From a bacterium (lineage in GTDB: Bacteria > Zhuqueibacterota > QNDG01 > JAFGCO01), in NCBI GenBank assembly GCA_016932575.1, contig JAFGCO010000060.1, positions 1 through 61,947 of the forward strand: DNA of 61,947 nucleotides, given 5' to 3'. The position numbers and the translations under genes were made by a program. This document shows positions 35,520 to 55,547 of this stretch, one piece after another; within the stretch, counting starts at the first letter, position 1, and every line of letters begins with the position of its first letter. The notes below the pieces were generated by a model. It saw only the letters and a list, made by a program, of their open reading frames with translations, was not told the DNA's origin and made no database searches.

Positions 35520-35548
35520 TTGACATGAAAAATTGTTATTTATATATT
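35520..35548 (+). promoter_or_regulatory. Sigma70-type promoter candidate for the hydrogenase operon
   Basis: TTGACA (35520-35525) is separated by exactly 17 bases from TATATT (35543-35548). It is the best promoter match in the window. Transcription from about 35555 would give a leader of about 400 bases before the HydB-like gene. Confidence 0.55.
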
Positions 35549-35958: not shown

Positions 35959-36996
35959 ATGCTAATAGAAGAACAGGCATTGCTTTTATTTTTTCAACAA
36001 TGTGCTGAAAAGGGTGTAGGGGCATATTCGGAGATCATTGTTCCAGTTCAGCAAGGTGAGAATGAGGGGCAATCTCATTTTTCCCCATTTTCACGGGATA
36101 AAGTGTGTATCCTCAGCGGGTATCGTTCCATTGATCCGGTTAAAATGCTGTTTTACATGCCCAGGGAAAAGGTGCTGCCGATTCAGAAGAGCAGAAAGAA
36201 ACGTATCGTTGCCGGAGTGAAAGCATGTGACATTAAGGGGGTGCAGGTATTGGATGCTGCACTTTCAGGAGGGGATTTTATTGATCCTGTGTATCAGGCG
36301 TGGCGTGAAGAAACCACCCTGATTTCAACGGATTGTTCATCCATTGCCTCTACCTGTCATTGCACACTTCTTTCCGGTCAGCCCTATGCAGAATCCGGCT
36401 TTGATTTGAATTTATCAAAACTGAAGGATAAATTTTTCATACAAGTGGGTTCAGAAAAGGGAGAGGCGCTTTTAAAACTCATTCAAAAATATGTTCCTGT
36501 TGAAGATTCTTCTGATGCTGATTTAAAAGCCGTACAGGCCAATCGGAAGAAAATGAAAGAGAAGGTCATTGCTCAGAATAAAGATCTGGAACGGTCCGGA
36601 AAATACGATAAACTTCGCCAGGATTATGATAAAGACTGGCCGAAAGTATCGGAGACATGTGTGGGATGCGGCGCCTGTACCCATATCTGTCCTACGTGCT
36701 ATTGTTTGATCCTGAACGATGAAACCAAGGCGCAAAAATTTGTCAAAGTACGCAGTTATGATTCCTGTCAATGGCATGGGTATGCACGTGTCGCCGGTGG
36801 TGACAGCCCCCGTCCGAAAATGTTTCAGAGATTTCGGAATCGTTATCTGTGCAAATTTCTTTTTATGAAAAGCAATTTTGACCAGCTTGGCTGTACAGGC
36901 TGTGGCCGATGCACAGAAGCCTGTGCAGGCAATATTGATTTCCGCAAGGTTGTGAAGCGGATTACAGATAAAGTGAAAACGGAAGTTGTTGTGTGA
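35959..36996 (+). CDS. HydB/AsrA-like iron-sulfur subunit of the hydrogenase operon
   Basis: The 345-residue protein resembles the beta subunit of sulfhydrogenases and AsrA of anaerobic sulfite reductase. These pass electrons between a flavoprotein and the catalytic subunit. It has an N-terminal domain with KACDIKG, DCSS and TCHC motifs, then two [4Fe-4S] motifs, CVGCGACTHICPTCYC (about 235) and CTGCGRCTEACAGN (about 314). GGAG lies 7 bases before ATG. It is the first gene of the hydrogenase operon, and the partner flavoprotein is next, after 100 bases. It is unusual beside a group 4 hydrogenase, because it normally accompanies group 3b enzymes. Confidence 0.87.
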   Translation: MLIEEQALLLFFQQCAEKGVGAYSEIIVPVQQGENEGQSHFSPFSRDKVCILSGYRSIDPVKMLFYMPREKVLPIQKSRKKRIVAGVKACDIKGVQVLDAALSGGDFIDPVYQAWREETTLISTDCSSIASTCHCTLLSGQPYAESGFDLNLSKLKDKFFIQVGSEKGEALLKLIQKYVPVEDSSDADLKAVQANRKKMKEKVIAQNKDLERSGKYDKLRQDYDKDWPKVSETCVGCGACTHICPTCYCLILNDETKAQKFVKVRSYDSCQWHGYARVAGGDSPRPKMFQRFRNRYLCKFLFMKSNFDQLGCTGCGRCTEACAGNIDFRKVVKRITDKVKTEVVV

Positions 36997-37096
36997 ATTT
37001 GAATCAGAGCACGGCCCCATGCACAGCCAATCACGACAACTTCCATGGGAATTCATGGAACGTGTTGGTCTCCTATTGAAACCTGGGAGGAAATAG

Positions 37097-37918
37097 ATGC
37101 AGAATCCTTTTGAGGTGATCCCGGCAAAAATTTACAAAATAAAACAAGAGTCGCCTCTGATCCGGACAATCAGTTTGCGTCCTGAAAAATCCATTCGATT
37201 TCAAACAGGACAATTTATGGAACTGACCCTGCCCGGTATCGGAGAAGCGCCTTTTACACCCTCCACATCCCATTTTCAAACAGAGGTGATGGATATTACG
37301 ATCATGAAAACGGGTTTTATGACCGAACATATTCATCAGACGAAAGTAGGGGATCTTGTCGGATTAAGAGGGCCCTTCGGAACCCGTTACCCGCTTGAGC
37401 GGTTTGAAGGTAAAGATCTCCTGATCCTGGGTGGCGGGTGTGGATTGGCGCCTTTGCGTTCGCTATTTCTGACTTTGCTGGATGAAATAGACAAATACAA
37501 AAGCATCACGTTCCTTGCCGGTGCGAAAAGCCCAAAAGACTGTATCTACAAGAGTGAAGTCAGTGGCTGGAAAAAACATCCGAATGTCAAATTTTTAAGA
37601 GCCGTCGACGTCGTTCCAGAAGGAGAGACATGGGATGAGGAAGTGGGCGTGGTGACTGTTCTGCTGAAAAAGTGCAGTATTGATCCGAAGACCAATCCGG
37701 CCGTTGTATGCGGCCCACCGGTCATGATGAAATTCGGCACATTCGATCTGTTAAAAATGGGTTATAAAGAAGAGAATATCTATCTCTCCATGGAAAAGAA
37801 AATGTACTGCGGACATGGACAGTGCAGGCATTGTGTGATGGGGAAATATTACGCGTGCAAGGATGGCCCTGTGTTCTCTTACGCACAAATCAAGGATGAG
37901 GAGGCAATCTGGGAATGA
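37097..37918 (+). CDS. HydG/AsrB-like FAD- and NAD(P)-binding subunit
   Basis: The 273-residue protein belongs to the ferredoxin-NADP reductase superfamily. The FAD domain contains TISLRP and FQTGQFMELTLPG, the NAD(P) domain GGGCGLAPLRSLF (about 113), and the C-terminus has four cysteines (YCGHGQCRHCVMGKYYACKDG) for one [2Fe-2S] cluster. It resembles the gamma subunit of sulfhydrogenase and PyrK. It should exchange electrons between NAD(P)(H) and the HydB-like subunit. GGAGG lies 6 bases before ATG, and it overlaps the next gene by 4 bases. A weak hairpin (TTCCATG/CATGGAA, 37041-37060) lies just upstream. Confidence 0.9.
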   Translation: MQNPFEVIPAKIYKIKQESPLIRTISLRPEKSIRFQTGQFMELTLPGIGEAPFTPSTSHFQTEVMDITIMKTGFMTEHIHQTKVGDLVGLRGPFGTRYPLERFEGKDLLILGGGCGLAPLRSLFLTLLDEIDKYKSITFLAGAKSPKDCIYKSEVSGWKKHPNVKFLRAVDVVPEGETWDEEVGVVTVLLKKCSIDPKTNPAVVCGPPVMMKFGTFDLLKMGYKEENIYLSMEKKMYCGHGQCRHCVMGKYYACKDGPVFSYAQIKDEEAIWE

Positions 37919-38418
37919 AACGATTGGTGATTGATATCCCGGCCCTTATGGAATCCGGCGTGCCGGTCGAAGAAATACAATGCGAATATTTGTTTCACCG
38001 CAAGAATCCGGGCCCATTTTCGCTGCTGGAAGTCGCAGAATTCGCATCGTATTGCCGTCAGTGCCGCGACGCTTTCTGCGTCACAGCATGTCCTAAAGAG
38101 GCGCTGGAAAGACAGAAAAACGGCATGATCAAACGGTACAACATGCGTTGCGTGGGATGCAAGAGTTGTGTGCTGGCCTGTCCATTTGGCACTATTTTTC
38201 CGGAAGTGATCAATTACATTACAGCCAAATGCGACACCTGCCTGAACCAGCTTTCTGAAAATCCGGATTACCTGCCGGCCTGTGTCAAATCTGCACCGGC
38301 AGACACGTTTTCCATGCAGGATGTGGCCAAGGAAGATCCTGATAAACATCTTTATTTTGTCGGAGACCATGTTGCAGTCAAGAGCCCGGGATGGCGGCAA
38401 AAGGAGGAGAGAACATGA
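37915..38418 (+). CDS. 4Fe-4S polyferredoxin (HycB-type) of the group 4 hydrogenase
   Basis: The 167-residue protein carries grouped cysteine motifs, YCRQCRDAFCVTACP (about 43), CVGCKSCVLACPFG (about 77) and CDTCLNQLSENPDYLPACV (about 104). This is the layout of HycB/CooF-like electron-transfer subunits with about three to four [4Fe-4S] clusters. It probably links the HydB/HydG input pair to the hydrogenase small subunit. It is coupled on both sides by ATGA overlaps. Confidence 0.88.
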   Translation: MKRLVIDIPALMESGVPVEEIQCEYLFHRKNPGPFSLLEVAEFASYCRQCRDAFCVTACPKEALERQKNGMIKRYNMRCVGCKSCVLACPFGTIFPEVINYITAKCDTCLNQLSENPDYLPACVKSAPADTFSMQDVAKEDPDKHLYFVGDHVAVKSPGWRQKEERT

Positions 38419-39338
38419 TTGGACTCAAATTTCTGTATCTCCTCGGATTTATGGTGGCCACAGCCGTGTTCGGCCTGATTGTGGGGTGGGTGGACCGCAA
38501 GCTTTCGGCGCGTGTCCAGTTTCGTGTGGGTCCGCCTTTTCTGCAGAATTTTAATGATTTCTTTAAATTGATGGGCAAGGAGACTATTCTGGTCAGGAAT
38601 GGTATTCACTGGCTTTTCATTACGGCGCCGCTGGCAGCATTCGGCATGCTGGTTCTGATCTCGACCATGATATGGACCGCGCTGATTCTGCATCGGGGTT
38701 TCGGAGGGGACCTGATCGTTGTGATGTATCTTATGATGATCTACTCTGTTGCGCTGGTCCTTGGCGGCGCAAGCACGGGGAATGTCTACTCTTCAATAGG
38801 CGCGGGTCGAGAGATCAAGCTGCTTTTGGGTGATGAACTGGTTTTTATCATGATCTGTCTGGTACCAGTCATTCAGTCCAATTACACACTAAGGCTGGAT
38901 CAAATCATCACACATCAGGCAGAAAATGGCATGGTGATCGGATCTGTTTCAGGTGCGATTGCCTTTGTCCTAGGACTGCTCTGCATTCAGGCAAAGATGG
39001 CATTGCCGCCTTTTCATATCCCCGAAGCAGAAACCGAGCTGGTTGAAGGTCCGCTCATGGAGTACAGCGGTCCGCTTCTTGCTTTTTGGAAATTGAACCA
39101 TCACATGATGTATGTCGCCTATCCGCTGCTTCTCGTACTCCTCTTTTTCGGCGGATTCAAGCTTCAGGGCATCGATATTCTCTGGGCTGTGCTGAAATAT
39201 CTGTTGATTGTGGTTTTAATGATTCTGATAAAAAATACAAATCCTCGCGTGCGTATTGATACGGCGCTGAATTTTTTCTGGCGGATCGCCGCACCGTTGG
39301 GGCTTGCCGCTGTACTCTTAGCCGTTCTGGGAGTGTAA
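38415..39338 (+). CDS. NuoH-like membrane subunit of group 4 [NiFe]-hydrogenase (EchB/MbhM/HycD type)
   Basis: ATG 38415 is set by AAAGGAGG 7 bases upstream and overlaps the previous stop by 4 bases; the longer frame from 38391 would contain the ribosome site. The 307-residue protein has about eight helices and the conserved cytoplasmic loops of the family: ARVQFRVGPPFLQNF (quinone-site-like loop in complex I) and FHIPEAETELVEGPLMEYSG. It anchors the hydrogenase module to the antiporter-like subunits and forms the entry of the ion pathway. Confidence 0.92.
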   Translation: MIGLKFLYLLGFMVATAVFGLIVGWVDRKLSARVQFRVGPPFLQNFNDFFKLMGKETILVRNGIHWLFITAPLAAFGMLVLISTMIWTALILHRGFGGDLIVVMYLMMIYSVALVLGGASTGNVYSSIGAGREIKLLLGDELVFIMICLVPVIQSNYTLRLDQIITHQAENGMVIGSVSGAIAFVLGLLCIQAKMALPPFHIPEAETELVEGPLMEYSGPLLAFWKLNHHMMYVAYPLLLVLLFFGGFKLQGIDILWAVLKYLLIVVLMILIKNTNPRVRIDTALNFFWRIAAPLGLAAVLLAVLGV

Positions 39339-39339
39339 T

Positions 39340-39759
39340 ATGGGATGGTACAATAAACGTCTGGCCAAATCAATCTGGGTGTTTCACGTAAGTGCATCTC
39401 CATGCAATAATTGCGACATTGAAATTCTGGATTTGCTTACACCCAAATATGATGTCGAACGTCTGGGGATCAAACTGGTCGGCTCGATCCGGCATGCGGA
39501 TGTGCTGCTGGTGACAGGTATCATGAATCAGAAGATCGCACCAAAGGTTCGTAAAATCTATGAACAGGCACCGAAACCAATATTCGTTGTTGGAGTCGGT
39601 ACCTGCCCTTCCGGCGGATGTTGTTTTAATGACAGTTACAATATCACTCATAATCGGAAAGATGTGATTCCCTATGATATTTATATTCCGGGATGTCCAC
39701 CCAAACCGGAAGCCATGATAGCCGGAGTCGCAAAGCTGATGGAGGTTTTGAATGAATAG
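39340..39759 (+). CDS. NuoB-like small subunit of group 4 [NiFe]-hydrogenase (EchC/MbhJ type)
   Basis: A 139-residue protein with the four cysteine positions for the proximal [4Fe-4S] cluster: CNNCDIEILD (about 18), VGTCPSGGCCF (about 86) and PGCPPKPEAM (about 117). It transfers electrons directly to the NiFe site in the large subunit. It overlaps the next gene by 8 bases. Confidence 0.93.
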   Translation: MGWYNKRLAKSIWVFHVSASPCNNCDIEILDLLTPKYDVERLGIKLVGSIRHADVLLVTGIMNQKIAPKVRKIYEQAPKPIFVVGVGTCPSGGCCFNDSYNITHNRKDVIPYDIYIPGCPPKPEAMIAGVAKLMEVLNE

Positions 39760-40192
39760 AAGCGACCGCACCGATGATTTCCTGAAGAAATTTAAGGGAA
39801 AGATTGACAAGGTCATCCGTAAGCCGAAGCGTCTCTATTTTGAAGTGAGGGATGAAGATCTTCGTGAAATTGTCAAGTATATTTTTCATGATATGGGCTG
39901 CAGGCTTTCTACAGCCACTGCCACAGAAGTGTATGACGCGATTGAAGTGCTTTATCAGTTTTCACACGATCCATCGGGATGTTATTTCTGTCCCCGTGTC
40001 AGGATGAAAGACAAAAAAAATCCGGTTATGAATTCAATCACACCCGTGGTACGCGGCGCCGAATGGATTGAGCGTGAAATGTTCGACTTTTGGGGAGTGA
40101 CTTTCCGGGATCACCCCAGACCCGAACGTCTTCTGGCCAGAGAACATCCACAGAAACTTGATAAACCACTCCGGTTCGGGAGGATTTCATGA
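39752..40192 (+). CDS. NuoC-like subunit of group 4 [NiFe]-hydrogenase (EchD/MbhK type)
   Basis: The 146-residue protein ends with the complex I 30-kDa subunit signature (WIEREMFDFWGVTFRDHPRP). It stabilises the interface between small and large subunits. It overlaps the following large-subunit gene by 4 bases. Confidence 0.88.
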   Translation: MNRSDRTDDFLKKFKGKIDKVIRKPKRLYFEVRDEDLREIVKYIFHDMGCRLSTATATEVYDAIEVLYQFSHDPSGCYFCPRVRMKDKKNPVMNSITPVVRGAEWIEREMFDFWGVTFRDHPRPERLLAREHPQKLDKPLRFGRIS

Positions 40193-41382
40193 AGCTGAAT
40201 GAAAATGTTAACCATGTGCCTGTCGGACCCTTTCATCCTCTTCTTGAGGAGGCGGAATATTTTAATCTGACAGTGGAAGGCGAGACGGTAGTCGATATTG
40301 ACATGGATATCGGCTGGATGCACCGGGGTCATGAATTTATCTCTGAACAGAAAACCTTTACACAATCTATTTTTCTGGTTGAGCGTATTTGCGGGATTTG
40401 TTCCACATCACATCCGCTGGCATGTGTGCACGCATTTGAGGATGTGGACAATACAGATATCCCGGAACGAGCAGCTTATATACGGTCTCTGGTCGGTGAG
40501 CTTGAACGAATTCACAGCCATTTATTGTGGCTCGGTCTGGCCGGTCATTTTATCGGCTATGATACACTCTGGATGTGGTCATGGAAATATCGGGAACCGG
40601 TGCTTCAAATGATGGAAATTATTTCCGGTAACCGAAACCATTATGGGATGATGCGAATCGGAGGCGTTGCCCGTGATGTGGATCCGGACCGTGTCAAAAC
40701 GCTGCGACCTATTTTGGACATGCTGGACAAAAAGCTGAAAATGATTGTCGCAGCAGCCAAAGATGATCCTGTGCTAAAATCACGACTCAAGGGCGTGGGT
40801 GTGCTTACCAAACAGGATGCGATTGAGATGTGTGCGACAGGACCCACTTCGCGCGCATCCGGTGTTCCGGGCGATGTACGCACAGACGAACCCAATGATG
40901 CATACGGATGGCTCGATTTTAAAGTTATTGTTACAGAAAACGGGGACGTGTGGGATAAATTGGTCGTTCGTTTGCTCGAAATGCTGGAATCTACAAAAAT
41001 ATGCCGTCAATGCCTTGACAAACTGAACACTGTGAAGGGACCGATATTAAATGATGTCAAGGAAATTTCTGCGGGAGAAGGAATTGGCCGATATGAAGCC
41101 CCCCGCGGTGAAGTATTCCATTATGTTCGTACCGACGGGACAAACAGGGCCATCCGCCACAAAGTCAGGGCACCGAGTTATGTGAATATTCCAACTTATT
41201 CGGCATCCTGTAAAGGTATCCCGATTGCCGATGCCCTGATCACACTGGCTTCGGTAGATCCATGCTATTGCTGTACGGAACGGGCACTCAGGGTGAAGGG
41301 TGAACATCCTGATGCCATTGATTTTTTGAAATTATCACGAGCAAAGACCGAGCGAATCAGGAGGGAAATCCATGGCCACTAA
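40189..41382 (+). CDS. Group 4 [NiFe]-hydrogenase large (catalytic) subunit
   Basis: The 397-residue NuoD-like protein keeps both nickel-binding CxxC motifs: ERICGICSTSH (about 65) and DPCYCCTER (about 357). It is therefore a true hydrogenase and not a complex I subunit. The catalytic reaction is 2H+ + 2e- to H2, reversible. After the Arg of the second motif 32 residues remain (to GH at the end). That matches the length of the peptide removed from E. coli HycE, and a matching protease gene lies at 47857. NiFe(CN)2CO assembly would use the hyp genes at 49.8-55.5 kb. Overlaps with both neighbours indicate one operon. Confidence 0.94.
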   Translation: MKLNENVNHVPVGPFHPLLEEAEYFNLTVEGETVVDIDMDIGWMHRGHEFISEQKTFTQSIFLVERICGICSTSHPLACVHAFEDVDNTDIPERAAYIRSLVGELERIHSHLLWLGLAGHFIGYDTLWMWSWKYREPVLQMMEIISGNRNHYGMMRIGGVARDVDPDRVKTLRPILDMLDKKLKMIVAAAKDDPVLKSRLKGVGVLTKQDAIEMCATGPTSRASGVPGDVRTDEPNDAYGWLDFKVIVTENGDVWDKLVVRLLEMLESTKICRQCLDKLNTVKGPILNDVKEISAGEGIGRYEAPRGEVFHYVRTDGTNRAIRHKVRAPSYVNIPTYSASCKGIPIADALITLASVDPCYCCTERALRVKGEHPDAIDFLKLSRAKTERIRREIHGH

Positions 41383-43186
41383 TCCTTATATCGCGTTGAT
41401 TCTCATCCCGATACTGGTGGGTCTGTTCAATCTGGTTCTGCCAGGACTGCTGAAGAAAATACTCACTTTTCTCGGCATGGCTCTCACAGGATTCCTGACA
41501 CTGATGCTCGCGCTTGATCCCGATTTTTTTGAATGGATCTTTGAAGTCCCCTATTTTGGATTAGATAACCTCGGTACTTTTGCACTGGCCGGCACACAGT
41601 TGCTTGCTTTCATTATTTTAATTTTCACACTCAAAGGCGTGGACAAGCGAATTGAGAAATCTTTTTTTGTACTTTATCCCTTGACTGTGGGATTCTGTAA
41701 TGGTGTGATCCTTTCGGATCATATGATAGCGTTTATGGTTTTCTGGGGACTGTCGGGAGTCATGCTTTATTTGTTCAATCTGTTAGGCCGAAGCAAGGAT
41801 GCTCCGGAATCCGCACGCAAAACATTTATGCTTATCGGCGGGAGTGACGCCTGTCTTATTCTTGGATTTGTAATGCTGGGTTTCGCGATACCCCAGCCAA
41901 GCTGGTTCATCACTGATATCAATGTGGATCTGACGGGCAGTGCTGCAATCGTTTCATTTATCTCTTTGCTCATTGCTGCTTTGGCCAAAGCAGGGGGATT
42001 TCCGCTTCATACCTGGGTACCCTCTTATGCCAAAGAAGCCCCTGTTGAGAGTGTGGCGCTTTTGCCCGCATCGCTGGACAAAATTCTCGGTATTTTTCTA
42101 TTGGCCCGTATCGTTACGCAATTATTTCAATGTCCCCTTCTCATTCATATGGTTCTGATCAGTATCGGTGCAGTCACAGTCATTGCAGCGGTCATGATGG
42201 CTCTTGTTCAGCATAATGGCCGGGAACTGCTCGGATATCATGCGGTCAGCCAGGTTGGATATATGATCATCGGTGTTGGAAGCGGATCACCCATAGCTTT
42301 TGCGGGCGGACTCTTTCATCTGATCAATAATGCCATTTACAAGTCCAATCTTTTTCTCGTATTGGGATCCGTTGAAAAACAGACCGGTACAAATGAATTG
42401 GATGATCTCGGCGGTTTGGGAAAGAATATGCCGATTACACTTGTTATGGCGCTCATCGGTGCGTTTTCCATTTCGGGAATTCCGCCTTTCAACGGATTCT
42501 TTTCAAAATGGTTAATTTATCATGGACTGCTGGACATGGCCAGAGAGGCAACAGCCGGATATGAGATCTGGCTGCTGGCGTGTTTTATTCTGGCCATTTT
42601 TGGAAGTGCGCTGACTCTGGCCAGTTTTCTCAAGTATTTGCATACGATTTTTCTGGGCAAGCGTCCTAAAAAATATGATAAAATCAGAGAAGCCCCGGCC
42701 AATCAATGGCTTTCTACCGGGCTGCTGTCTGTCTTGTGCGTTATTTTCGGACTGTTTGCCCTTGAAATTCCCCTGCCCAAGCTTATCCTGCCTATTCTGG
42801 AGGAAAATGGAATGGGCAGTTTCGATTACGGGCTTTACAAATCAAAACTCATTTTTACGATGATGGGTGTGGGATTCGTTATCGGCTGGATCATTTACCT
42901 GCTCATACGGAAAGTCCGGCTGGATGATGTATATCTCGGGGGTATGGATGCATTAGAAAAGTTTCGTGTTACGGGAACCGAATTTTATCAGGAAATCCGC
43001 CGGATGAAACCGCTCAGCACCATTTATGATTGGGTTGAGAAAAAGTGGCTTGATCTGTATGCGCTGCTGGGAGGTGCTTCCAATACCATTGCACGATTGT
43101 TTCAGAAAGCACATCCGGGATTATTGTCTTTGTATTTGTTTTATATTGTGCTGGGCATGTTGGTTTTAATGTTTATACGCAATTGA
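41372..43186 (+). CDS. NuoL/HyfB-like antiporter subunit lacking the TM5 glutamate
   Basis: The 604-residue membrane protein has about 16 helices. The central lysine helix is present (ALAKAGGFPLHTW), and so are NGRELLGYHAVSQVGYMI and the SISGIPPFNGFFSKW loop. The helix that in NuoL, MrpA and MrpD carries an essential Glu reads FMVFWGLSGVMLYLF, with Gly in place of Glu. The C-terminus has an amphipathic, aromatic segment (YQEIRRMKPLSTIYDWVEKK) and a final helix. It is one of two large antiporter-like subunits of the operon; the other (44603) has the Glu. It overlaps the large-subunit gene by 11 bases, and the only sizeable gap inside the operon follows (87 bases). Confidence 0.9.
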   Translation: MATNPYIALILIPILVGLFNLVLPGLLKKILTFLGMALTGFLTLMLALDPDFFEWIFEVPYFGLDNLGTFALAGTQLLAFIILIFTLKGVDKRIEKSFFVLYPLTVGFCNGVILSDHMIAFMVFWGLSGVMLYLFNLLGRSKDAPESARKTFMLIGGSDACLILGFVMLGFAIPQPSWFITDINVDLTGSAAIVSFISLLIAALAKAGGFPLHTWVPSYAKEAPVESVALLPASLDKILGIFLLARIVTQLFQCPLLIHMVLISIGAVTVIAAVMMALVQHNGRELLGYHAVSQVGYMIIGVGSGSPIAFAGGLFHLINNAIYKSNLFLVLGSVEKQTGTNELDDLGGLGKNMPITLVMALIGAFSISGIPPFNGFFSKWLIYHGLLDMAREATAGYEIWLLACFILAIFGSALTLASFLKYLHTIFLGKRPKKYDKIREAPANQWLSTGLLSVLCVIFGLFALEIPLPKLILPILEENGMGSFDYGLYKSKLIFTMMGVGFVIGWIIYLLIRKVRLDDVYLGGMDALEKFRVTGTEFYQEIRRMKPLSTIYDWVEKKWLDLYALLGGASNTIARLFQKAHPGLLSLYLFYIVLGMLVLMFIRN

Positions 43187-43273
43187 ATCTTCGTCAGGTC
43201 GTATGTTGCAGGCCGTTGATCTTATCCATTCCTTGACCCGCGATATACGATATACGACAGTCGAGGAGGTTTT

Positions 43274-43822
43274 ATGCCGGTTGAAACGTGGTTGACCTTT
43301 ATACTGGGATTCATGATTTTGGGCTCGATTGTCGCGCTTGAAATCAGGGATATCCTCTCTTCCATTGTCGCGATCGGAGTCGTGGGACTGGGAGTGTCCA
43401 TCGCATTTCTTTTTCTGCAGGCGCCTGATCTGGCGATTGTTCAGTTCCTTTTTGAAATATTCGCGCTGATTATACTTGTCCGGGCGTTTGTGAAGAAAGA
43501 TTATCATATCGAGACACCGGCGCGTGTGAATGGATTTATGGTGGCAATCTCACTGCTTGTGCTTATTGCGATTTTTGTATCCAGTATCTCTGTTTTCAAA
43601 CTGCTGCCTCCTTTTGGGCAGCCGCTGTTTGAAACCGCCAGCCATTATGTGAATTACGGTACTGAGGAGACGGGGGCGGTTAATCTTGTGGCTTCTATTA
43701 TTCTCGATTACCGTGCCTATGATACACTGGGTGAAGTCACTGTTCTGTTTACAGCTATTCTTGGTACGATTACTATCTTGCGTATTCGAAAGGGCAAGGA
43801 TGCAGGGAGGAAGGGCGCATGA
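43274..43822 (+). CDS. MbhD/MbhE-type Mrp subunit (DUF4040 plus MbhE domains)
   Basis: The 182-residue protein has about five helices. Its N-terminal half has the DUF4040/MbhD signature (AFLFLQAPDLAIVQFLFE), and its second half matches MbhE (YVNYGTEETGAVNLVASIIL, then DTLGEVTVLFTAILG). In standard Mrp antiporters these domains form the C-terminal part of MrpA; here they are one separate gene, as in Mbh operons, where they are usually two. GAGG lies 7 bases before ATG. It overlaps the next gene by 4 bases. Confidence 0.88.
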   Translation: MPVETWLTFILGFMILGSIVALEIRDILSSIVAIGVVGLGVSIAFLFLQAPDLAIVQFLFEIFALIILVRAFVKKDYHIETPARVNGFMVAISLLVLIAIFVSSISVFKLLPPFGQPLFETASHYVNYGTEETGAVNLVASIILDYRAYDTLGEVTVLFTAILGTITILRIRKGKDAGRKGA

Positions 43823-44271
43823 ACAATTCAAAACAAGGTATGACTCTTATTGTCAAAACCGTAACCCGGGTCACTGTCTGGCTTATTGTGCTGTACGGGA
43901 TTTACTTGATTCTGCATGGCCATCTTACACCCGGGGGAGGATTCGGAGGCGGTGTGATTCTGGCACTGGCATTTTTAAATATTATGTTAGCCTATGGGAG
44001 GGAGGCCACACAAAAGTGGCTCAACTTGAAATTTCTTGAAGATATCGAAGCGGTTAGTGCGACTCTCTTTTTATTCATGGGTCTTTTAGGCATTGCTCTG
44101 GGTGGCCGTTTTCTGATCAATTTTTTACCAAAAGGATCACCCCACGCCTTGCTGAGCGCAGGGAATATTCCTATACTGAACATTTTGATCGGTGTCAAAG
44201 TCGCGATGTCTTTATTCCTTGTAGTCTGGGTACTGGCAGGTTTGCATGAAGAGAAAGGAGGTCAATCGTGA
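43819..44271 (+). CDS. mrpB: MrpB/MnhB-type antiporter subunit (MbhF-like)
   Basis: The 150-residue protein has four helices and the MnhB signature YGIYLILHGHLTPGGGFGGG followed by a long helix. It is part of the Na+/H+ antiporter module. ATGA overlaps couple it to the genes on both sides. Confidence 0.9.
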   Translation: MNNSKQGMTLIVKTVTRVTVWLIVLYGIYLILHGHLTPGGGFGGGVILALAFLNIMLAYGREATQKWLNLKFLEDIEAVSATLFLFMGLLGIALGGRFLINFLPKGSPHALLSAGNIPILNILIGVKVAMSLFLVVWVLAGLHEEKGGQS

Positions 44272-44606
44272 CGCTTTATCTGATGTGTTTTGCACTTTTC
44301 CTTGTCGGTGTTTATGGCCTGCTCACAAAAAGGGATCTGATCAAGATTATCCTTTCCCTTGCGATTATGGGATATGCGGTGAATTTATTTCTTATTCTTT
44401 TTGCCTATAAAAAAGACGCGATATTCCCTATTCTTTTAAAGAATGTGGCTCAGAGTTCGATGGTGGATCCCCTGCCGCAGGCATTGGTTCTCACGTCTAT
44501 TGTCATTGAACTGGGAACCACCGCACTTTTAGTGGCTCTGGCCATCCGGCTTGTTCAGAAATACAAAACCTTTGATATTACCAAAATCAGGAGGCTTTTC
44601 GGATGA
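44268..44606 (+). CDS. mrpC: MrpC/NuoK-like antiporter subunit (MbhG-like)
   Basis: The 112-residue, three-helix protein has the MrpC/NuoK core GYAVNLFLILFAY and the downstream DPLPQALVLTSIVIELGTTA segment, including the conserved Glu in the third helix. It forms part of the trans-membrane ion path. It overlaps mrpD by 4 bases. Confidence 0.92.
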   Translation: MTLYLMCFALFLVGVYGLLTKRDLIKIILSLAIMGYAVNLFLILFAYKKDAIFPILLKNVAQSSMVDPLPQALVLTSIVIELGTTALLVALAIRLVQKYKTFDITKIRRLFG

Positions 44607-46078
44607 TCCTCCCGTATTATATTGCTATCCCGTTGCTGTCGGCTTTTCTGATTTCACTGATTGCAGGGAAAAAAGATGAGTGGGCTGTTTTACTCTCCAC
44701 TACAGCCGGTGCATCCATGCTGATTCTTTCTATTTACAGTCTGATTGCACAGAATGGAGAAACATTTGTTTATAAGATGGGATTCTGGAGTCTGCCTATC
44801 GGCATTGTGCTGGTGCAGGATGGGCTCACCTGCCTGATGCTGGTGCTTGTCAGTTTAATCTCGTTTACATCCCTTATATATTCTGTACAGTATATCCGGC
44901 ATATGGACAGAAACTGGAAATACTATGCGCTGTTTATGCTGCTCATTACGGGGATGAACGGTGTCATTATTACAGGCGATCTTTTTAATTTGTTTGTGTT
45001 TATGGAGATTGCCCTGTTCTCCGCTTTTGCCCTGGTGGCTTACGGCGGTCATGCCGAGGAATATGAAGCAGCCTTTAAATACGCGGTCATGGGCGCCCTT
45101 TCTTCAGCACTTGTGCTGATTGGAATCGCGATTCTTTACAGCGCTACATCCACACTGACTTTGGCAAAAATTGCTGAGAAAGTGCCGACACTTGACCCCG
45201 GGCTGATTTTCTGGACAGGAGGTCTGTTTCTTGCCGGTCTGGGGCTGAAAGCTGCGATTATGCCGTTCCATGCGTGGCTTCCGGATGCGCACTCCTCAGC
45301 TCCTGCCCCGATTTCCTCCATGCTTTCCGGTGTTTTGATTAAAGTACTCGGCATTTATACGATAATTCGTCTTTATTTCAATGTGTTTAATGCCCCTGAT
45401 TTTTATATGCAAGTCTTCCTTGTATTGGGTGCCGTTTCTATTATCCTTGGGGGATTGCTCTCCATTGTCCAATGGGACATGAAACGCCTTCTGGCATATT
45501 CCAGCATCAGCCAGGTCGGTTACATCCTGGTGGGTCTGGGTATTGGAACACGGCTTGGTATTTTGGGTGCAGTGTTTCATTTATTCAGCCATGCAATTTT
45601 TAAATCGTTGCTTTTTTATAATGCGGGTGCAGTTGAAATGGCACTTGGCACACGCGATATGCGTAAGATGGGTTCCCTTGCCCGTGTGCTTCCGATCACT
45701 TCAGCAACCTCACTTGTAGGTACTCTGGCCATTTCAGGAATTCCGCCATTTAATGGTTTCATCAGCAAGCTGATTATCATCATAGCATTGATTAAAGCGG
45801 GGGCACCCGTATATGCGATCCTTGCCGTGATCGGCAGTATTCTGACACTGGGTGCCATGATGAAAATGCAGCGGTATGGATTTCGTGGTGAGACAGAGAT
45901 TAAGAAAATATCCGAAAAGATCGGATGGCGCATGAATACTGCCATGATATTGCTTGCCGTATTGTGTCTTTTAACCGGATTGATGCTGCTGCCGGGCATC
46001 CGAGAATCGATAGTTGATCCGGTTGTAAAAGTACTGGTCGATCATAGTCAATACATGCAGCTGGTTCTTGGGAGATAA
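44603..46078 (+). CDS. mrpD: MrpD/NuoN-like antiporter subunit (MbhH-like)
   Basis: The 491-residue protein has 14 helices and all key residues of an ion-translocating subunit. These are the TM5 Glu in NLFVFMEIALFSAFAL, the central Lys in FLAGLGLKAAIMPFHAWLPDA, and KRLLAYSSISQVGYI, plus TLAISGIPPFNGFISK. It should be a functional proton or sodium channel half, in contrast to the NuoL-like protein at 41372. Two bases separate it from mrpE. Confidence 0.94.
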   Translation: MILPYYIAIPLLSAFLISLIAGKKDEWAVLLSTTAGASMLILSIYSLIAQNGETFVYKMGFWSLPIGIVLVQDGLTCLMLVLVSLISFTSLIYSVQYIRHMDRNWKYYALFMLLITGMNGVIITGDLFNLFVFMEIALFSAFALVAYGGHAEEYEAAFKYAVMGALSSALVLIGIAILYSATSTLTLAKIAEKVPTLDPGLIFWTGGLFLAGLGLKAAIMPFHAWLPDAHSSAPAPISSMLSGVLIKVLGIYTIIRLYFNVFNAPDFYMQVFLVLGAVSIILGGLLSIVQWDMKRLLAYSSISQVGYILVGLGIGTRLGILGAVFHLFSHAIFKSLLFYNAGAVEMALGTRDMRKMGSLARVLPITSATSLVGTLAISGIPPFNGFISKLIIIIALIKAGAPVYAILAVIGSILTLGAMMKMQRYGFRGETEIKKISEKIGWRMNTAMILLAVLCLLTGLMLLPGIRESIVDPVVKVLVDHSQYMQLVLGR

Positions 46079-46080
46079 TT

Positions 46081-46587
46081 ATGCAAATAAAAACGCGTAG
46101 TCGAATAACTGTATTCATTTTATCATTTTTGGTCTGGATCGCGCTGACCAGTGTCCGTGATCCGCAGGAGTTGGTTGCCGGATTTGTTGTTTCTGTTCTG
46201 GTTGCCCTGATTGCCGGTCATTTTTTCATTACAACAGAGAAATCAAAGCATTTTTTGCATCGAATGGCAGCTGCAATTCTCTATTTTTTTAAATTTCTCT
46301 GGGAGATGGTCAAAGCAAATTTTCATGTGGCTTATCTTGTTATTCATCCCAATGTGCCGATCAGACCCGGAATCGTTAAAATCAAAACCCGTTTGACCAA
46401 AGAGACTGCCATTACAGTTTTAACCAACTCCATTACTTTGACGCCGGGCACGTTAACCGTGGATATCAATCCCGAGAAGAAAGAAATTTATGTGCACTGG
46501 ATCGATGTGAAGTTTAAGGATGTGAAAATGGCTACGAAGACAATCGGCGGCAAATTTGAGAGCAGACTTATGGAGGTGTTTGAATGA
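46081..46587 (+). CDS. mrpE: MrpE-type antiporter subunit (MbhA-like)
   Basis: The 168-residue protein has two to three N-terminal helices, then a cytoplasmic domain with VIHPNVPIRPGIVKIKTRL and LTNSITLTPGTLTVDI, the MrpE signatures. It overlaps mrpF by 4 bases. Confidence 0.92.
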   Translation: MQIKTRSRITVFILSFLVWIALTSVRDPQELVAGFVVSVLVALIAGHFFITTEKSKHFLHRMAAAILYFFKFLWEMVKANFHVAYLVIHPNVPIRPGIVKIKTRLTKETAITVLTNSITLTPGTLTVDINPEKKEIYVHWIDVKFKDVKMATKTIGGKFESRLMEVFE

Positions 46588-46922
46588 AGATCATTCGCTG
46601 GCTGCTCGGATTGATGATCATCGGTCTGTTCATCATCTTTAATTTTTTCATCTATCAGGGACCGATTCTGTTCAAGCTGATAAACGTGAGTTTATTCTGC
46701 ACACTCTTTGTACTTTTCCGTGTGCTTTTCGGACCGTCTCCGGCTGACCGTATTGTCGCAGTGGATATTCTTGGCATCCTGATTATCGGATTGCTCGCCC
46801 TGCTGGGACTTCATTATAAAACCGATTTCTATATGGATATTGCGCTCATATGGGCGCTATTGAGTTTTATTGCCTCTCTGGCGTTTTCCAAAATACTGGA
46901 AGGGAGGTCGCTTGATGATTAG
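46584..46922 (+). CDS. mrpF: MrpF-type antiporter subunit (MbhB-like)
   Basis: A 112-residue three-helix protein with RVLFGPSPADRIVAVDILG, the MrpF signature including the Asp implicated in ion binding. It overlaps mrpG by 8 bases. Confidence 0.92.
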   Translation: MKIIRWLLGLMIIGLFIIFNFFIYQGPILFKLINVSLFCTLFVLFRVLFGPSPADRIVAVDILGILIIGLLALLGLHYKTDFYMDIALIWALLSFIASLAFSKILEGRSLDD

Positions 46923-47253
46923 AGAAATTTTAGGAATGGCTTTCATTTACATTGGCATTGCCTTCGATTTTTTTGGTGTGCTTGGACTGGTACGACTGCC
47001 TGATGTTTATAACAGGCTCCAGGCTGCCACCAAGTGTGTTACATTCGGCACGGCAGGCCTGCTTTTTGGTATATTTATCCTTCAGGGGTTTAATGCTTTC
47101 GGATTCAAAGCATTGATCGGGATTGTATTTATCTTTTTAGCGGCTCCGGTAGCGGCTCATGCCATTGCCCGGGCTGCCCATCGAAGCCGAATCCCTCTGA
47201 CTTCTGAAACCGTGGTGGATGCCTACGAAAAAGATCATGAGATCAAGGAGTAA
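46915..47253 (+). CDS. mrpG: MrpG-type antiporter subunit (MbhC-like)
   Basis: ATG 46915 has GGGAGG upstream; the TTG at 46870 in the same frame is rejected. The 112-residue protein has the MrpG signature FFGVLGLVRLPDVYNRLQA followed by KCVTFGTAG and three helices. It completes the Mrp set B-G in this operon. Confidence 0.92.
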   Translation: MIREILGMAFIYIGIAFDFFGVLGLVRLPDVYNRLQAATKCVTFGTAGLLFGIFILQGFNAFGFKALIGIVFIFLAAPVAAHAIARAAHRSRIPLTSETVVDAYEKDHEIKE

Positions 47254-47258
47254 GCATT

Positions 47259-47867
47259 ATGTGGCTCCCTAAAATACGAGAACTCAAAGAAGCGCTTGGT
47301 TCACTTTTTTCCGCGCCATATACAACCAAATTCCCCAAAGACATGAGCGCAGTGGATTTGCCTGATGGATTTCGCGGGTTCCCCAGATACGATGCTTCTG
47401 CGTGTGTGGGATGCGGTACATGTGCGCAGGTTTGTCCAACCCGTGCGATCGATGTTATTGATAATACGAAGAAAAAAATACGCACGCTTCGTGTGAATTA
47501 CAACCAGTGTATGAACTGCGGCCAATGTGAAGAAAAGTGTATCACAAAAACAGGGATCACACTGACCAAGGAATTTACCCTTGTCGTCACCGATCTGTCC
47601 GATTCTTCTGCTTTTGAATCCGTTGAAAAAGAACTGGCGGTTTGTGAGGTTTGCGGCGCAGTGATTGGCTGTAAAGACCACCTTGCATGGATCAAAGACC
47701 GTTTAGGGGCCAAGGCTTATGCGCATCCCAATCTGCTTTTATGGACACAGGAACAATTCTCTCAATCCGGACCGGCTGAAGTGAAGGATCGAATCCGACG
47801 TGAAGATCAGATTAAAATGGTTTGTGCCAAATGCCGTTATCGTATTGTTGTCGCTGATGAATTTTAA
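47259..47867 (+). CDS. NuoI-like 4Fe-4S ferredoxin subunit (MbhN/EchF type)
   Basis: A 202-residue protein with two [4Fe-4S] motifs, ACVGCGTCAQVCPTRA (about 50) and CMNCGQCEEKC (about 87). A C-terminal extension contains CEVCGAVIGC and CAKCRY, a possible extra zinc or iron site. In Mbh and Ech it is the electron-entry subunit next to the small subunit. Here it lies after the Mrp genes, far from the other hydrogenase core genes. It overlaps the protease gene by 11 bases. Confidence 0.9.
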   Translation: MWLPKIRELKEALGSLFSAPYTTKFPKDMSAVDLPDGFRGFPRYDASACVGCGTCAQVCPTRAIDVIDNTKKKIRTLRVNYNQCMNCGQCEEKCITKTGITLTKEFTLVVTDLSDSSAFESVEKELAVCEVCGAVIGCKDHLAWIKDRLGAKAYAHPNLLLWTQEQFSQSGPAEVKDRIRREDQIKMVCAKCRYRIVVADEF

Positions 47868-48321
47868 TGAATTTCAAGAATCGCTTCACGCGTATTCTCC
47901 TAAATCCATTGTGCTTGTGGGATTGGGCAATCCAATGAGAACAGATGATGGTGCCGGCCTCAAACTTCTTGAAAAAATAAAGCAAACAGACGTCTTTTCG
48001 GCTTCCCATTTTATTTTTGCCGAGACCAACCCGGAAAATTATCTTCAGAATATTCTTGACTGTCATCCTGAAGCCGTGGTTTTTATTGACACCGCCCGTT
48101 TTAAACAACCTCCCGGAACCATTCAGTGGCTGAAGCAGTACAATCTTGAAGAATTTCGCATCAGTACACACGCATTTTCCATGACGCTTGTTGAAGAATA
48201 TCTCAGGGCTCATCAATCCATGAGTTTTTATTATCTGGGCATTCAGCCATACTCGACAAAAATCGGGAGGAGGATGTCATCCGTACTTAAAAGAAGTCTG
48301 GAACTTTTTTTTCTGAAATGA
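47857..48321 (+). CDS. Hydrogenase maturation protease (HycI/HyaD-like)
   Basis: I chose ATG 47857 (154 residues); an upstream frame start at 47800 would lie deep in the ferredoxin gene. The signature GLGNPMRTDDGAGL is followed by the other nickel-ligand positions VFIDTAR (Asp) and STHAFSM (His), as in HybD and HycI. It should cut the C-terminal tail of the large subunit at 40189-41382 after nickel insertion. It is the last hydrogenase gene before the kinase. Confidence 0.9.
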   Translation: MNFNEFQESLHAYSPKSIVLVGLGNPMRTDDGAGLKLLEKIKQTDVFSASHFIFAETNPENYLQNILDCHPEAVVFIDTARFKQPPGTIQWLKQYNLEEFRISTHAFSMTLVEEYLRAHQSMSFYYLGIQPYSTKIGRRMSSVLKRSLELFFLK

Positions 48322-49793: not shown

Positions 49794-50852
49794 TTAACAA
49801 ATCCTCGGCAGCTGATCGCCGGTCAGCAGATCAAGTCTCCGGCGCCCCCCAAATGCGTTGACTGCAGTGACAGATTTTTCCGGTGTTTCATCAACATGGC
49901 CGATAATACAGGCCGGATTTTCTTTATTATTTGTCCGGATAAGCTTAAGTGCCTGTTCAGCGCCTGATTCCGGAACAAAAAGCACAAAACGCCCTTCATT
50001 GGGCATATAAAATGGATCGAGGCCAAACAGTTCGCAGGCACCGTAAACGGTCGGATCCACAGGAACCACCTCCTCCCGGATTTCGAAATGTTTTCCGCTT
50101 TCCTCCGCCAGTTCCACAAGGGCCGTTGCCATGCCGCCGCGCGTGCAGTCGCGCATGCAGTGAATCGGAATGTCATTGTCCAGCAAGTCCAGTACGATCC
50201 GATGCAGGGCATTGCAGTCGCTCAGAATCTCCGTTTCAAAAGAGAGTCCTTCCCTCGATGAAAGAACCGCGATACCGTGCCTGCCGATGTCACCGCTTAA
50301 AATGATTTTGTCACCGGACCGGATTTCCCTGGGACCGATGGACTGATCATGATCCAGTGTGCCCACTCCCGTCGTATTAATGAGGAGCTCTCCCTCTCCT
50401 TTTCTGTCGATGACTTTGGTATCTCCTGTCACAATATTTACGTTTGATTCTTCTGCTGCCTCACCAATACTCTGGATAACATTCCACAGGATTTCCATCC
50501 CCAATCCTTCCTCCATAATCAGAGACAGGCTGAGCCATCGGGGGGTGGCGCCGCACATGGCGAGATCATTCACAGTACCAAATACAGAGAGTTTTCCAAT
50601 ATCTCCTCCCGGGAAAAAAAGGGGCCGAACCACATGGCTGTCCGTTGTCATCACGATTTTTGTTTTCGGATTATCCAGTAATGCGCCGTCATGCTTTTGG
50701 GCTAAAAACGGATTATTCAGGACCGGCTGAAACATATGCTGGATAAGATCCCGGGTCAAGCGGCCGCCGCTGCCGTGAGCCATGACAATTTTCGGATACT
50801 TGCTGAGGGGAATCGGACACTGCAGCCCCTTCCATTTTGTTTTATCCGGCAT
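49794..50852 (-). CDS. hypE: Hydrogenase maturation factor HypE
   Basis: HypE dehydrates the carbamoylated C-terminal Cys to thiocyanate, the source of CN ligands for the NiFe site. ATG 50852 has AGGAG 5 bases upstream, giving 352 residues; the longer frame to 51056 runs into hypD. It starts with [16 protein letters not shown] and ends in PRIC, the required C-terminal Cys motif. It overlaps hypD by 11 bases and is the last gene of the hyp operon. Confidence 0.94.
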
Positions 50853-51936
50853 GGGATCTCCTGTATTTATAATAGGCGGCGCACGCCCCTTCTGATGAAA
50901 CCATGGTGGCTCCAAGCGGGGATTCCGGCGTGCATGCTTTTCCAAAAGCCGGGCACGCATCCGGTTTTTGCAGACCCTGCAAAATTTGTCCGCTGATACA
51001 GATTTCCGGCTCTGCGACCTCCTCACCGGATAAATGGAATTTATGTTCGGCGTCAAAAATCAGATACGCATCATTTAATCCGAGACCACTGTTCGGGATG
51101 GTGCCTATGCCGCGCCACTGACGGTCCACAACCCGAAATACTTTTTGCATCCATTCCCGGGCCGGAAGGTTTCCTTCGATCCGGACGGAACGGAGGTACT
51201 GATTTTCAACTTCAGCGCGGCCTTCTTCAAGCTGCCTGATACAGAGATATACACCCTGAACCAGATCCAGGGGTTCGAATCCGGTGACAATGATGGGTAT
51301 CTGATATTTCTTGGCAATAGGATTGTACTCCTGAACTCCCATGACTGTGCAGACATGACCTGCCGCAAGAAAACCGTCAATTTTCGACTGTTTTGAAGAA
51401 AGGATCGCCTTTATAGCGGGCGGGACAAGCACGTGTGCAACCAGCATGGAGAAATTTGTCATACGGCTCTCTTTTGCCTGATGAACGGCCATAGCCACGG
51501 CCGGGGCCGTGGTCTCAAATCCGATTGCAAAAAAGACGACCTCACGGCCGGGATTATCCCGGGCAATTTGCACGGCATCCATGGGGGAGTACACCATGCG
51601 GATGTCGCGCCCTTCGGCTTTTACTGAGAGCAGGTCCCGGTCTTTGCCGGGTACGCGAAGCATGTCCCCGAATGAACAGAAGGTGACCTCGGGACGAGAA
51701 GCCAGACGGATGGCTTTTTCGATCATAACAAGAGGTGTGACGCAGACCGGACAGCCGGGACCGTGAAGCAGGGTGATTTTTTCAGGAAGGAGCTCCTGCA
51801 ATCCGTATTTCAGTATCGCATGGGTCTGGCCGCCGCAGATTTCCATGATTCGCCAGTCATGGTTTGTGATCCGGTGGATCGCATCCAGTATTTTTTGTAC
51901 GTGGCCTGCCTCACGAAATTCAGAGATGTATTTCAT
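50842..51936 (-). CDS. hypD: Hydrogenase formation protein HypD
   Basis: A 364-residue iron-sulfur protein that, with HypC, assembles Fe(CN)2CO. The family cysteines are present in [12 protein letters not shown] (about 37), [13 protein letters not shown] (about 64) and the C-terminal cluster region. It overlaps hypC by 4 bases. Confidence 0.95.
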
Positions 51937-52184
51937 TTATGCCGATGTTCCTCTTCTTTTTCTGCGATTTCATTCCAGAGGCGCAGGGTTTCAGCGGCTT
52001 CATCAGGATCAATCACGCTAAGGGCAAAGCCCACATGCACATTCACATAATCTCCGATTTTGGCGTCGGGCACATATCCTAAATGCACTTCGCGAACCAC
52101 ACCGCCGAATTGGACCTTGCCCTTACGGTTGACCGGGTCCGCTTCTTTAATTTCGATGATTTTTCCGGGAATGGCAAGACACAT
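51933..52184 (-). CDS. hypC: Hydrogenase chaperone HypC/HupF
   Basis: An 83-residue protein with the invariant MCLAIPGKI start (Cys2 binds iron) and [13 protein letters not shown]. It carries the Fe(CN)2CO unit between HypD and the large subunit. It is coupled to hypD by a 4-base overlap; a 104-base gap separates it from hypF. Confidence 0.95.
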
Positions 52185-52288
52185 GGTTATTTCTCATATT
52201 TTATATGTTAGAAAATGTACCAAAGTTCAGTTTTAAGTATCTTTATGCACATTCAAGTTTTAATTTAATGCGTGATTCAATATATAAC

Positions 52289-54586: not shown

Positions 54587-55200
54587 GCTTCAATTCCATC
54601 ACCTGTCTTTGCTGAACATTCAAAAAGAGTGAGAGCCGGATTGATTTTTAATGCGTTTTTCCGAAAGGTATCGACGCTGAATTCAACATAAGGCAGAAGA
54701 TCGGTCTTGTTCAGAATACAGGTTGTTGCTTTATGAAAAGCCAGAGGATATTTTAGCGGTTTGTCATCTCCTTCGGTTGCAGAAAGGATGACCACTTTTT
54801 CAGTTTCCCCAAGATCAAATTCTGCAGGGCACACAAGATTGCCGACATTTTCAATAAACAGCAATTGTATTTCATCCAGCGGCAGCTTGTTTAAGGCATC
54901 CTGTATCAGCCGGGCGTCGAGGTGACAGCCGCCGCGGGTGATGATCTGAACCACAGGGATCTGATGCTCGGCAATCCGCTGTGCGTCATGGTCGGTCTGC
55001 ACATCACCCTCGATAACAGCCGGATGTATCTTCCCCTTCAGAATTTCAAGTGTTTTTTCTAGAAGCGTTGTTTTTCCGGATCCCGGAGAACTCAGAAGAT
55101 CGAGCGTCAGAATATTTTTTTGATGAAAAATTTCCCGGTTCAATTTTGCCAGATCCTCATTTTTCTCCAGAATTTTCTTTTCAATGGTGATGATACTCAT
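54547..55200 (-). CDS. hypB: Hydrogenase nickel incorporation GTPase HypB
   Basis: A 217-residue G protein that drives nickel delivery. It has a P-loop LLSSPGSGKTTLLEK (about 35), the metal-site loop RGGCHLDARLI (about 96) and LNKTDLL. It lacks the N-terminal CxxCGC and the His-rich stretch found in some HypBs, so nickel storage is not expected. It is coupled to hypA by an ATGA overlap. Confidence 0.94.
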   Translation of the reverse strand: MSIITIEKKILEKNEDLAKLNREIFHQKNILTLDLLSSPGSGKTTLLEKTLEILKGKIHPAVIEGDVQTDHDAQRIAEHQIPVVQIITRGGCHLDARLIQDALNKLPLDEIQLLFIENVGNLVCPAEFDLGETEKVVILSATEGDDKPLKYPLAFHKATTCILNKTDLLPYVEFSVDTFRKNALKINPALTLFECSAKTGDGIEAWTDWLTHKIKNG

Positions 55201-55541
55201 GAAACAAGCTCCAGTTTTTCGATGTGCAGTTCCTCGCCCTGCTGAATATCGATTTCGTGCGATGAACAGTTAGGGCATAAGAATTCAAAATCGCGGATAC
55301 CGAAAACTGTATCGCAGCTGCGGCACTTCGCGAGAATGGGCAGAGATTCAATACAGAGCGATGAAGAAGCAAGGGGCGTGTCTTCTGTCAGAGCCTGATA
55401 GGCGAATGTCAGAGATTCGGGAACCACTGCGGTTAATTCACCGATTTTAACATGCACGGACTTACAGGTTTCACCTGGATGCTCTCTGAGAATTTTTTCA
55501 ACAGTCATGATAATCTGTTGCGCTATGCTCATCTCATGCAC
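55197..55541 (-). CDS. hypA: Hydrogenase nickel chaperone HypA
   Basis: The 114-residue protein has the zinc site CRSCDTVF and CPNCSS, and the sequence HEMSIAQQIIM at the N-terminus. In the family His2 directly after the initiator Met binds nickel, so I favour the GTG at 55541, which yields MHEMSIAQ. ATG 55547 would put two residues before His. It is the first gene of the hypABFCDE operon. Confidence 0.9.
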   Translation of the reverse strand: MHEMSIAQQIIMTVEKILREHPGETCKSVHVKIGELTAVVPESLTFAYQALTEDTPLASSSLCIESLPILAKCRSCDTVFGIRDFEFLCPNCSSHEIDIQQGEELHIEKLELVS

Positions 55542-55547
55542 GGGCAT

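Follow-up and report, generated by a model that had tools for sequence, protein, structure and literature searches.

The disposal of NADH in the form of H2 by anaerobes is a long-standing problem, and the usual answers are bifurcating FeFe hydrogenases or reversed electron transport via Rnf. Several described enzymes each resemble in part the locus examined here, an array of 17 genes at 35959-48321 on the + strand of the bacterial contig JAFGCO010000060.1 (contig C11; all 61,947 nt of it are called the window) from a 4.41-Mb, 94.5% complete genome (GCA_016932575.1, the home genome). The membrane-bound hydrogenase of Pyrococcus furiosus (Mbh, group 4d) has a similar NiFe core, MbhDE, Mrp subunits B-G and Glu21, but ferredoxin enters it at MbhN and it has a single antiporter subunit, whereas the window has HydB, HydG, HycB-like and HycF-like subunits and a second antiporter subunit with Gly in transmembrane helix 5 (TM5). 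E. coli formate hydrogenlyase (FHL, group 4a) is alike in carrying an external oxidoreductase module on a HycB/HycF-like relay, and the Mrp-linked formate/CO enzymes of group 4b are alike in their Mrp arm. These two groups carry a formate or CO module, while the window array has a putative NAD(P) module instead; the Mrp-linked enzymes of group 4b, with their formate or CO modules, provide analogues of such a replacement (PMC5037454). Sulfhydrogenase I of P. furiosus (SHI, group 3b) has HydB and HydG subunits with the same cofactor sites, but it is soluble, has other large and small subunits and lacks a membrane arm. Respiratory complex I follows the same overall logic, with antiporter subunits and a NuoBCDHI core to which an NAD(P)H module is attached; it has no NiFe site and has NuoEFG, whereas in the window NiFe ligands are present, a NiFe site and H+ take the place of quinone, and a HydBG-type flavin module stands in place of NuoEFG.

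The array is real and conserved, and its genes most likely encode an NAD(P)-linked, Mrp-coupled group 4 hydrogenase. Genes were identified by NCBIfam, Pfam and PDB-sequence searches, and all open reading frames (ORFs) lay where a preliminary description of the window had placed them. That description had read HydB/HydG-like genes ahead of a complete group 4 core with both NiFe CxxC motifs, followed by MbhDE, MrpB-G, a second ferredoxin and a maturation protease. The first part was confirmed by family matches and by the ligand pairs C68/C71 and C359/C362, the second by Pfam/NCBIfam-type matches, and to the core we add a second, 604-aa antiporter-like subunit (AntN). Its statement that the genes overlap by 4-11 bases throughout is wrong, because the run is broken by a 100-nt gap between HydB and HydG, an 87-nt gap between AntN and MbhDE, and three gaps of 1-5 nt. 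The genes are the following.

35959..36996, + strand: HydB/AsrA-like Fe-S subunit, predicted electron relay of the NAD(P) module (ShyB, 171 bits; SHI beta 9nez_B, 138 bits)
37097..37918, + strand: HydG/AsrB-like flavoprotein with flavin adenine dinucleotide (FAD), NAD(P) and [2Fe-2S] sites (SHI gamma 9nez_C, 180 bits)
37915..38418, + strand: FdA, HycB/CooF-like polyferredoxin, 12 invariant Cys with room for three [4Fe-4S]
38391..39338, + strand: NuoH/MbhM-like membrane anchor (PF00146, 207 bits); the start may be 38415
39340..39759, + strand: NuoB/MbhJ-like small subunit, one [4Fe-4S] (family match)
39752..40192, + strand: NuoC/MbhK-like subunit (family match)
40189..41382, + strand: group 4 [NiFe] large subunit, NuoD-like (best PDB match P. 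furiosus MbhL, 6cfw_L, 290 bits)
41372..43186, + strand: AntN, NuoL/HycC/MbsX-like antiporter subunit, 604 aa, Gly126 in place of the TM5 Glu
43274..43822, + strand: fused MbhD-MbhE, the C-terminal part of MrpA (Pfam)
43819..44271, + strand: MrpB (MnhB; Pfam)
44268..44606, + strand: MrpC (NuoK-like, Oxidored_q2; Pfam)
44603..46078, + strand: MrpD antiporter subunit, TM5 Glu and Lys residues retained (Pfam, alignment)
46081..46587, + strand: MrpE (MNHE; Pfam)
46584..46922, + strand: MrpF (Pfam)
46915..47253, + strand: MrpG (MnhG; Pfam); the longest ORF runs from 46870, 46915 being the likely start
47259..47867, + strand: FdI, NuoI/HycF-like ferredoxin, two [4Fe-4S] and a HycF-type C-terminal Cys quartet
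about 47857..48321, + strand: HycI-like maturation protease (family match); the longest ORF runs from 47800

A scan of GTDB genomes gave at least 587 pattern matches, of which at least 582 encode a relative of the large subunit, and the best 80 loci were kept; synteny counts and carriers are drawn from these. Among the kept loci the order HydB-HydG-FdA-NuoHBCD-AntN-MbhDE-MrpBCDEFG-FdI(-HycI) varies remarkably little. HydB-HydG lies within the preceding 5.5 kb in 53 of the 55 loci with at least 5 kb of upstream DNA. A loss of HydBG in the other two, both Cloacimonadota (L042 and L048), was considered and rejected: traced further upstream, HydB-HydG was found at L119:127-1972 and L118:3435-5286, ahead of a complete Mbx-like operon wedged between HydG and FdA (the whole run, HydB-HydG included, spans L118:3435-18460 and L119:127-15293), which contains Mrp subunits, NuoHBCD with a NuoD devoid of NiFe ligands, and a NuoI-NfnL-like fusion. 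The association that the preliminary description had asked to be checked across genomes thus holds in 55/55 loci, and since the order recurs in 53 of them and the remaining two keep HydBG further upstream, chance is excluded. Downstream, the full AntN-MbhDE-MrpB-G-FdI series is present in 46 of the 47 loci with 7.5 kb of sequence (exception, L085), and in a variant in Omnitrophota (L070/L074) FdI comes right after NuoD. By record title, the carriers include KSB1, Marinimicrobia, Ignavibacteriota, Aminicenantes, Cloacimonadota, Thermotogota, Fibrobacterota, Aerophobetes, Kiritimatiellota, Lentisphaerota, Verrucomicrobiota, Omnitrophota, Desantisbacteria, Elusimicrobiota and Clostridia; almost all of these genomes were assembled from metagenomes, which means that individual assignments could be mistaken, but the synteny on the contigs stands. 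As a separate observation, the two Cloacimonadota carry two complex I-like machines in a single gene run.

The cofactor sites are conserved from one end of the array to the other. The HydG-like protein has FAD, NAD and DHODB-type Fe-S domains; its flavin region E-P-F-T-P-S, the GGGxGxAPLR and CGPP motifs and the [2Fe-2S] site are invariant or nearly so, the four Cys of the latter being 100% conserved. HydB Cys 90, 126, 133, 135, 234, 237, 240, 244, 247, 249, 270, 312, 315, 318 and 322 are invariant or nearly so and all common to SHI beta, and the relay cysteines, 12 or more in number, are 100% conserved among 64 homologues. The same complete conservation applies to the 12 Cys of FdA, the four Cys of the NuoB-like small subunit and the 8+4 Cys of FdI, whose quartet is formed by C129, C132, C189 and C192 (54 sequences). 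The large subunit, with the motifs RICGIC...DPCYCCTER, has C68, C71, C359 and C362 invariant among 83-84 homologues, and H75 is also among its conserved residues. Its C-terminal motif (residues 357-365) holds an extra Cys361, invariant in 83/83, so that it reads DPCYCC where MbhL has DPCLSC and HycE has DPCYSC. Glu21, to which a proton-shuttle role is ascribed (PMC11228991), is retained as in Mbh. After the NAD domain, 68/68 HydGs have Val-Asp, compared with Val-Thr-Arg in SHI, an NADPH enzyme; the invariant Asp hints at NADH preference, weakly, because the bacterial group 3b HydGs compared also have Asp.

The Cys quartet of FdI suggests how the module might be attached. It is absent from Ech in the alignment, and in the FHL subunit HycF the quartet-bearing extension binds a metal ion and touches HycB, at which the external dehydrogenase docks (PMC9474812). 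The simplest model, by this analogy, is that HydBG occupies the position of FdhF in FHL. Electrons would then pass from NAD(P)H to the FAD and [2Fe-2S] of HydG, through the Fe-S clusters of HydB and the three clusters of FdA, and on through two FdI clusters and the one NuoB-like cluster to the NiFe site of the large subunit; the parts are present in the sequences, and their connectivity is modeled on FHL. Turnover at the NiFe site would drive the membrane arm of NuoH-like protein, AntN, MbhDE and MrpB-G, probably by Na+/H+ exchange as in Mbh, judging from the family.

A quick maximum-likelihood tree places the array-bearing large subunits in a supported clade, with Ech, Hyc/Hyf and an Azospirillum enzyme linked to aldehyde ferredoxin oxidoreductase outside it; MbhL, on a long branch, tentatively falls outside as well. 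The clade includes Candidatus Celaenobacter antarcticus (L048) and Candidatus Saelkia tenebricola (L077), which have the same core and whose genomes an Antarctic lake study published as HydDB group 4g, Mrp-linked and assumed to be ferredoxin-driven, with no mention of HydB (PMC8542988). HydDB itself lists group 4g as of undetermined role and putatively ferredoxin-coupled (PMC5037454), and because group 4g is polyphyletic (PMC11291895), the array clade would be one clade of it. A cluster of group 4, Mrp, cooF and asrA/asrB genes in Saganbacteria RX5A was called enigmatic and its donor left open (Matheus Carnevali et al. 2019, PMC6349859); it has an extra molybdopterin oxidoreductase, which the window array lacks. 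The arrangement had therefore been partly glimpsed, in RX5A and in the Mrp-linked group 4g, and in the open-access literature (subscription papers lay outside the search) we found no proposal of NAD(P) coupling for this clade.

With this gene content, gene order, ligand set and clade structure, we consider it rather probable that the array encodes a complex I-like, ion-translocating H2:NAD(P)+ oxidoreductase in one membrane complex, and we infer its ion coupling, its preference for NAD vs NADP and its direction. At 1-10 Pa H2, the H2/H+ couple lies at about -266 to -296 mV by a Nernst estimate, and cellular NADH lies at about -280 mV (PMC9304861). The two couples are almost at equilibrium, so that the direction would depend on H2 pressure and the ion gradient. 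NADH could drive H2 release, with an H2 consumer pulling or the gradient pushing, or H2 could drive the reduction of NAD(P)+ while ions are exported. A bolder formulation is that the enzyme would be a reversible ion-pumping NADH:H+ oxidoreductase, a complex I with protons for quinone, widespread and undescribed, which interconverts NADH and H2 without electron bifurcation and whose antiporter channel on the hydrogenase side was rebuilt when its TM5 glutamate was lost; this we regard as evenly poised between right and wrong.

The TM5 glutamate is required for pumping in complex I and Mrp. The Mrp, Mbh, MBS and NdhF subunits in the alignment have it, as do nearly all other antiporter subunits compared, whereas in AntN, the antiporter subunit on the hydrogenase side, Gly replaces it in 67/70 sequences, W125-G126 being invariant in the modeled alignment. 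The TM7, TM8 and TM12 lysines of AntN are retained in 70/70. The AlphaFold2 model of AntN (mean predicted local distance difference test score 86.8, predicted TM-score 0.89) has a NuoL/HycC/MbsX-type fold and a C-terminal extension, the latter less certain, and Foldseek aligned it with HycC and MbsX at TM-scores of 0.78-0.79. MrpD keeps its TM5 Glu and its Lys residues in all true copies; nine sequences in which MrpD seemed to lack the Glu were rejected as truncated loci where AntN had been picked. The Gly of AntN together with the Glu of MrpD implies that ions take a different route through AntN or that only the MrpD side pumps. The preliminary description did not anticipate this Gly, which is a natural experiment on the pumping glutamate.

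The homology of HydB/HydG to AsrA/AsrB as well as to SHI beta/gamma would also be expected if HydBG were a soluble module of the AsrAB sulfite/sulfur or group 3b sulfhydrogenase kind, its genes merely parked beside group 4 genes. The preliminary description had named a separately transcribed HydBG in complex with a group 3 hydrogenase encoded elsewhere as one finding that would overturn its proposal; we looked for such a hydrogenase in the 94.5% complete home genome and found none. A group 3b partner was rejected since this genome has a single NiFe large subunit, the one in the array. The HydA/HydD subunits of group 3b were not found, the HydA model scoring 20 bits against a cut-off of 880. 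An AsrABC sulfite reductase was rejected because no AsrC match in the genome exceeded the cut-off. No FeFe hydrogenase was found there either, which leaves HydBG without another partner in this genome. Moreover, the HydG proteins of the arrays form a clade apart from group 3b HydG and SHI gamma (one deep fork of that tree is weakly supported), and at L076, L103 and L104 a group 3b-like operon with its own HydB-HydG lies immediately upstream of the group 4 array, so that these genomes hold two distinct HydG copies. A parked module thus appears very improbable to us. Universal synteny, invariant ligands, the separate HydG clade, co-divergence with the large subunit and the lack of another partner at home all support HydBG as the predicted NAD(P) input of the group 4 hydrogenase, encoded with it in one putative operon, which the preliminary description had proposed.

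A less remote alternative, but still an unlikely one, is a ferredoxin-driven, Mbh-like hydrogenase, with HydBG as an accessory that balances ferredoxin and NAD(P)H or with both donors feeding the same wire. Ferredoxin is the partner that HydDB puts forward for group 4g (PMC5037454) and that was assumed for the two Antarctic lake genomes in the array clade (PMC8542988), and the array does have two polyferredoxin-like subunits. However, HydBG is as universal as the core subunits, and FdI is of the HycF type, which docks an external oxidoreductase through HycB, and not of the short MbhN/Ech type; Mbh has a short MbhN-type input with no added oxidoreductase module, whereas HydB-HydG-FdA is always present here. 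The Gly of AntN, at a position occupied by Glu in nearly every compared antiporter subunit, would fit an NAD(P)H hydrogenase that does not pump and whose Mrp arm is vestigial or regulatory. We give this the least credence of all, as MrpD keeps its TM5 Glu and its Lys residues, AntN keeps its lysines, and a whole Mrp set is unlikely to persist unused in so many lineages. Several points nevertheless weigh against an ion-translocating H2:NAD(P)+ oxidoreductase. The function of every clade member is predicted from its genes, and it is from motifs that the NAD(P) site and the cofactor preference are deduced. The correlation of pairwise distances is 0.91 between HydG and the large subunit and likewise 0.91 between NuoB and the large subunit (near-zero values for NuoH were an artefact of ORF extraction and were left out), but species-tree signal inflates both values, and synteny and co-divergence are no proof of a physical complex, so that a single membrane complex is what the array would encode by inference. 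Soluble ferredoxin could be a further partner of the two ferredoxin-like subunits, and with AntN lacking the TM5 glutamate the pumping arm may differ or be weaker.

If the array does work as an ion-translocating H2:NAD(P)+ oxidoreductase, it would be a direct alternative to bifurcation and reversed electron transport, one complex coupling the NADH/H2 couple to an ion gradient, and would let fermenting or syntrophic bacteria interconvert NADH and H2. A clade of HydDB group 4g, formerly of "undetermined role" and found across many uncultured phyla from sediments and other anoxic environments, would thereby gain a function that can be tested, and the modular evolution of complex I would have a further example, in which the same core carries another type of NAD(P) module.

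A GGAGG-like site is clear before most array genes. A consensus scan, itself weak evidence, found no terminator-like site in the 100-nt and 87-nt gaps, and no RNA families or tRNAs were found in the window. One further feature lies 410 nt 5' of HydB, and such sites are no commoner than in shuffles, making it weak.

35520..35548, + strand: promoter-like site TTGACA-17-TATATT

A histidine kinase gene adjoins the 3' end of the array (+ strand, from 48347), and a hypE, D, F, B, A set lies next door on the - strand (49794-55547), in which HypD was assigned via Pfam and the others from reading translations and an AIRS domain, HypF, B and A by eye. Elsewhere in the home genome, C22 encodes an NqrF-like protein (a 30% match, the name being putative), and an Mbx-like complex at a contig end (L098:6951-9979, - strand) comprises a NuoD that lacks NiFe ligands and, after it, a NuoI-NfnL-like fusion; the home genome therefore probably has other ion-coupled redox enzymes.

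In known [NiFeSe] hydrogenases, selenocysteine (Sec) is in the C-terminal motif. Fourteen genomes of the same phylum encode a group 4 large subunit of a sister lineage, 42-45% identical, with one in-frame TGA. In the five loci inspected the TGA is at the same codon, giving RICGIU, the second (bridging) Cys of the N-terminal NiFe motif.

L099, about 7646-7648, - strand: in-frame TGA
L100, 6824-6826, + strand: in-frame TGA
L101, 7305-7307, + strand: in-frame TGA
L102, about 5487-5489, - strand: in-frame TGA
L108, about 4318-4320, - strand: in-frame TGA

The TGA probably encodes Sec, judging from the sequence context. It is followed by a hairpin resembling a bacterial selenocysteine insertion sequence (ACAGTAC-loop-GTACTGT), although the 45-nt stretch as a whole is predicted to fold only modestly more stably than its shuffles. 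A clear tRNA-Sec (68-75 bits) was found in 9 of the 14 genomes and in many other genomes too, the candidates having been scored in part. Sec at the N-terminal motif would be unusual, since known [NiFeSe] enzymes carry it C-terminally; we know of no [NiFeSe] hydrogenase with Sec at that position, and a literature search for one found nothing. The TGA-bearing large subunits are fused to NuoC and group with HycE in the quick tree. Their operons carry HydB-HydG, and in L099 a molybdopterin-dehydrogenase-like gene, read from its translation, is directly upstream. Finally, an Azospirillum plasmid operon (L111:697-10065) combines an aldehyde ferredoxin oxidoreductase gene with a group 4 hydrogenase that has a HycF-like subunit, and by its gene content reads as another plug-in input module for a group 4 hydrogenase.

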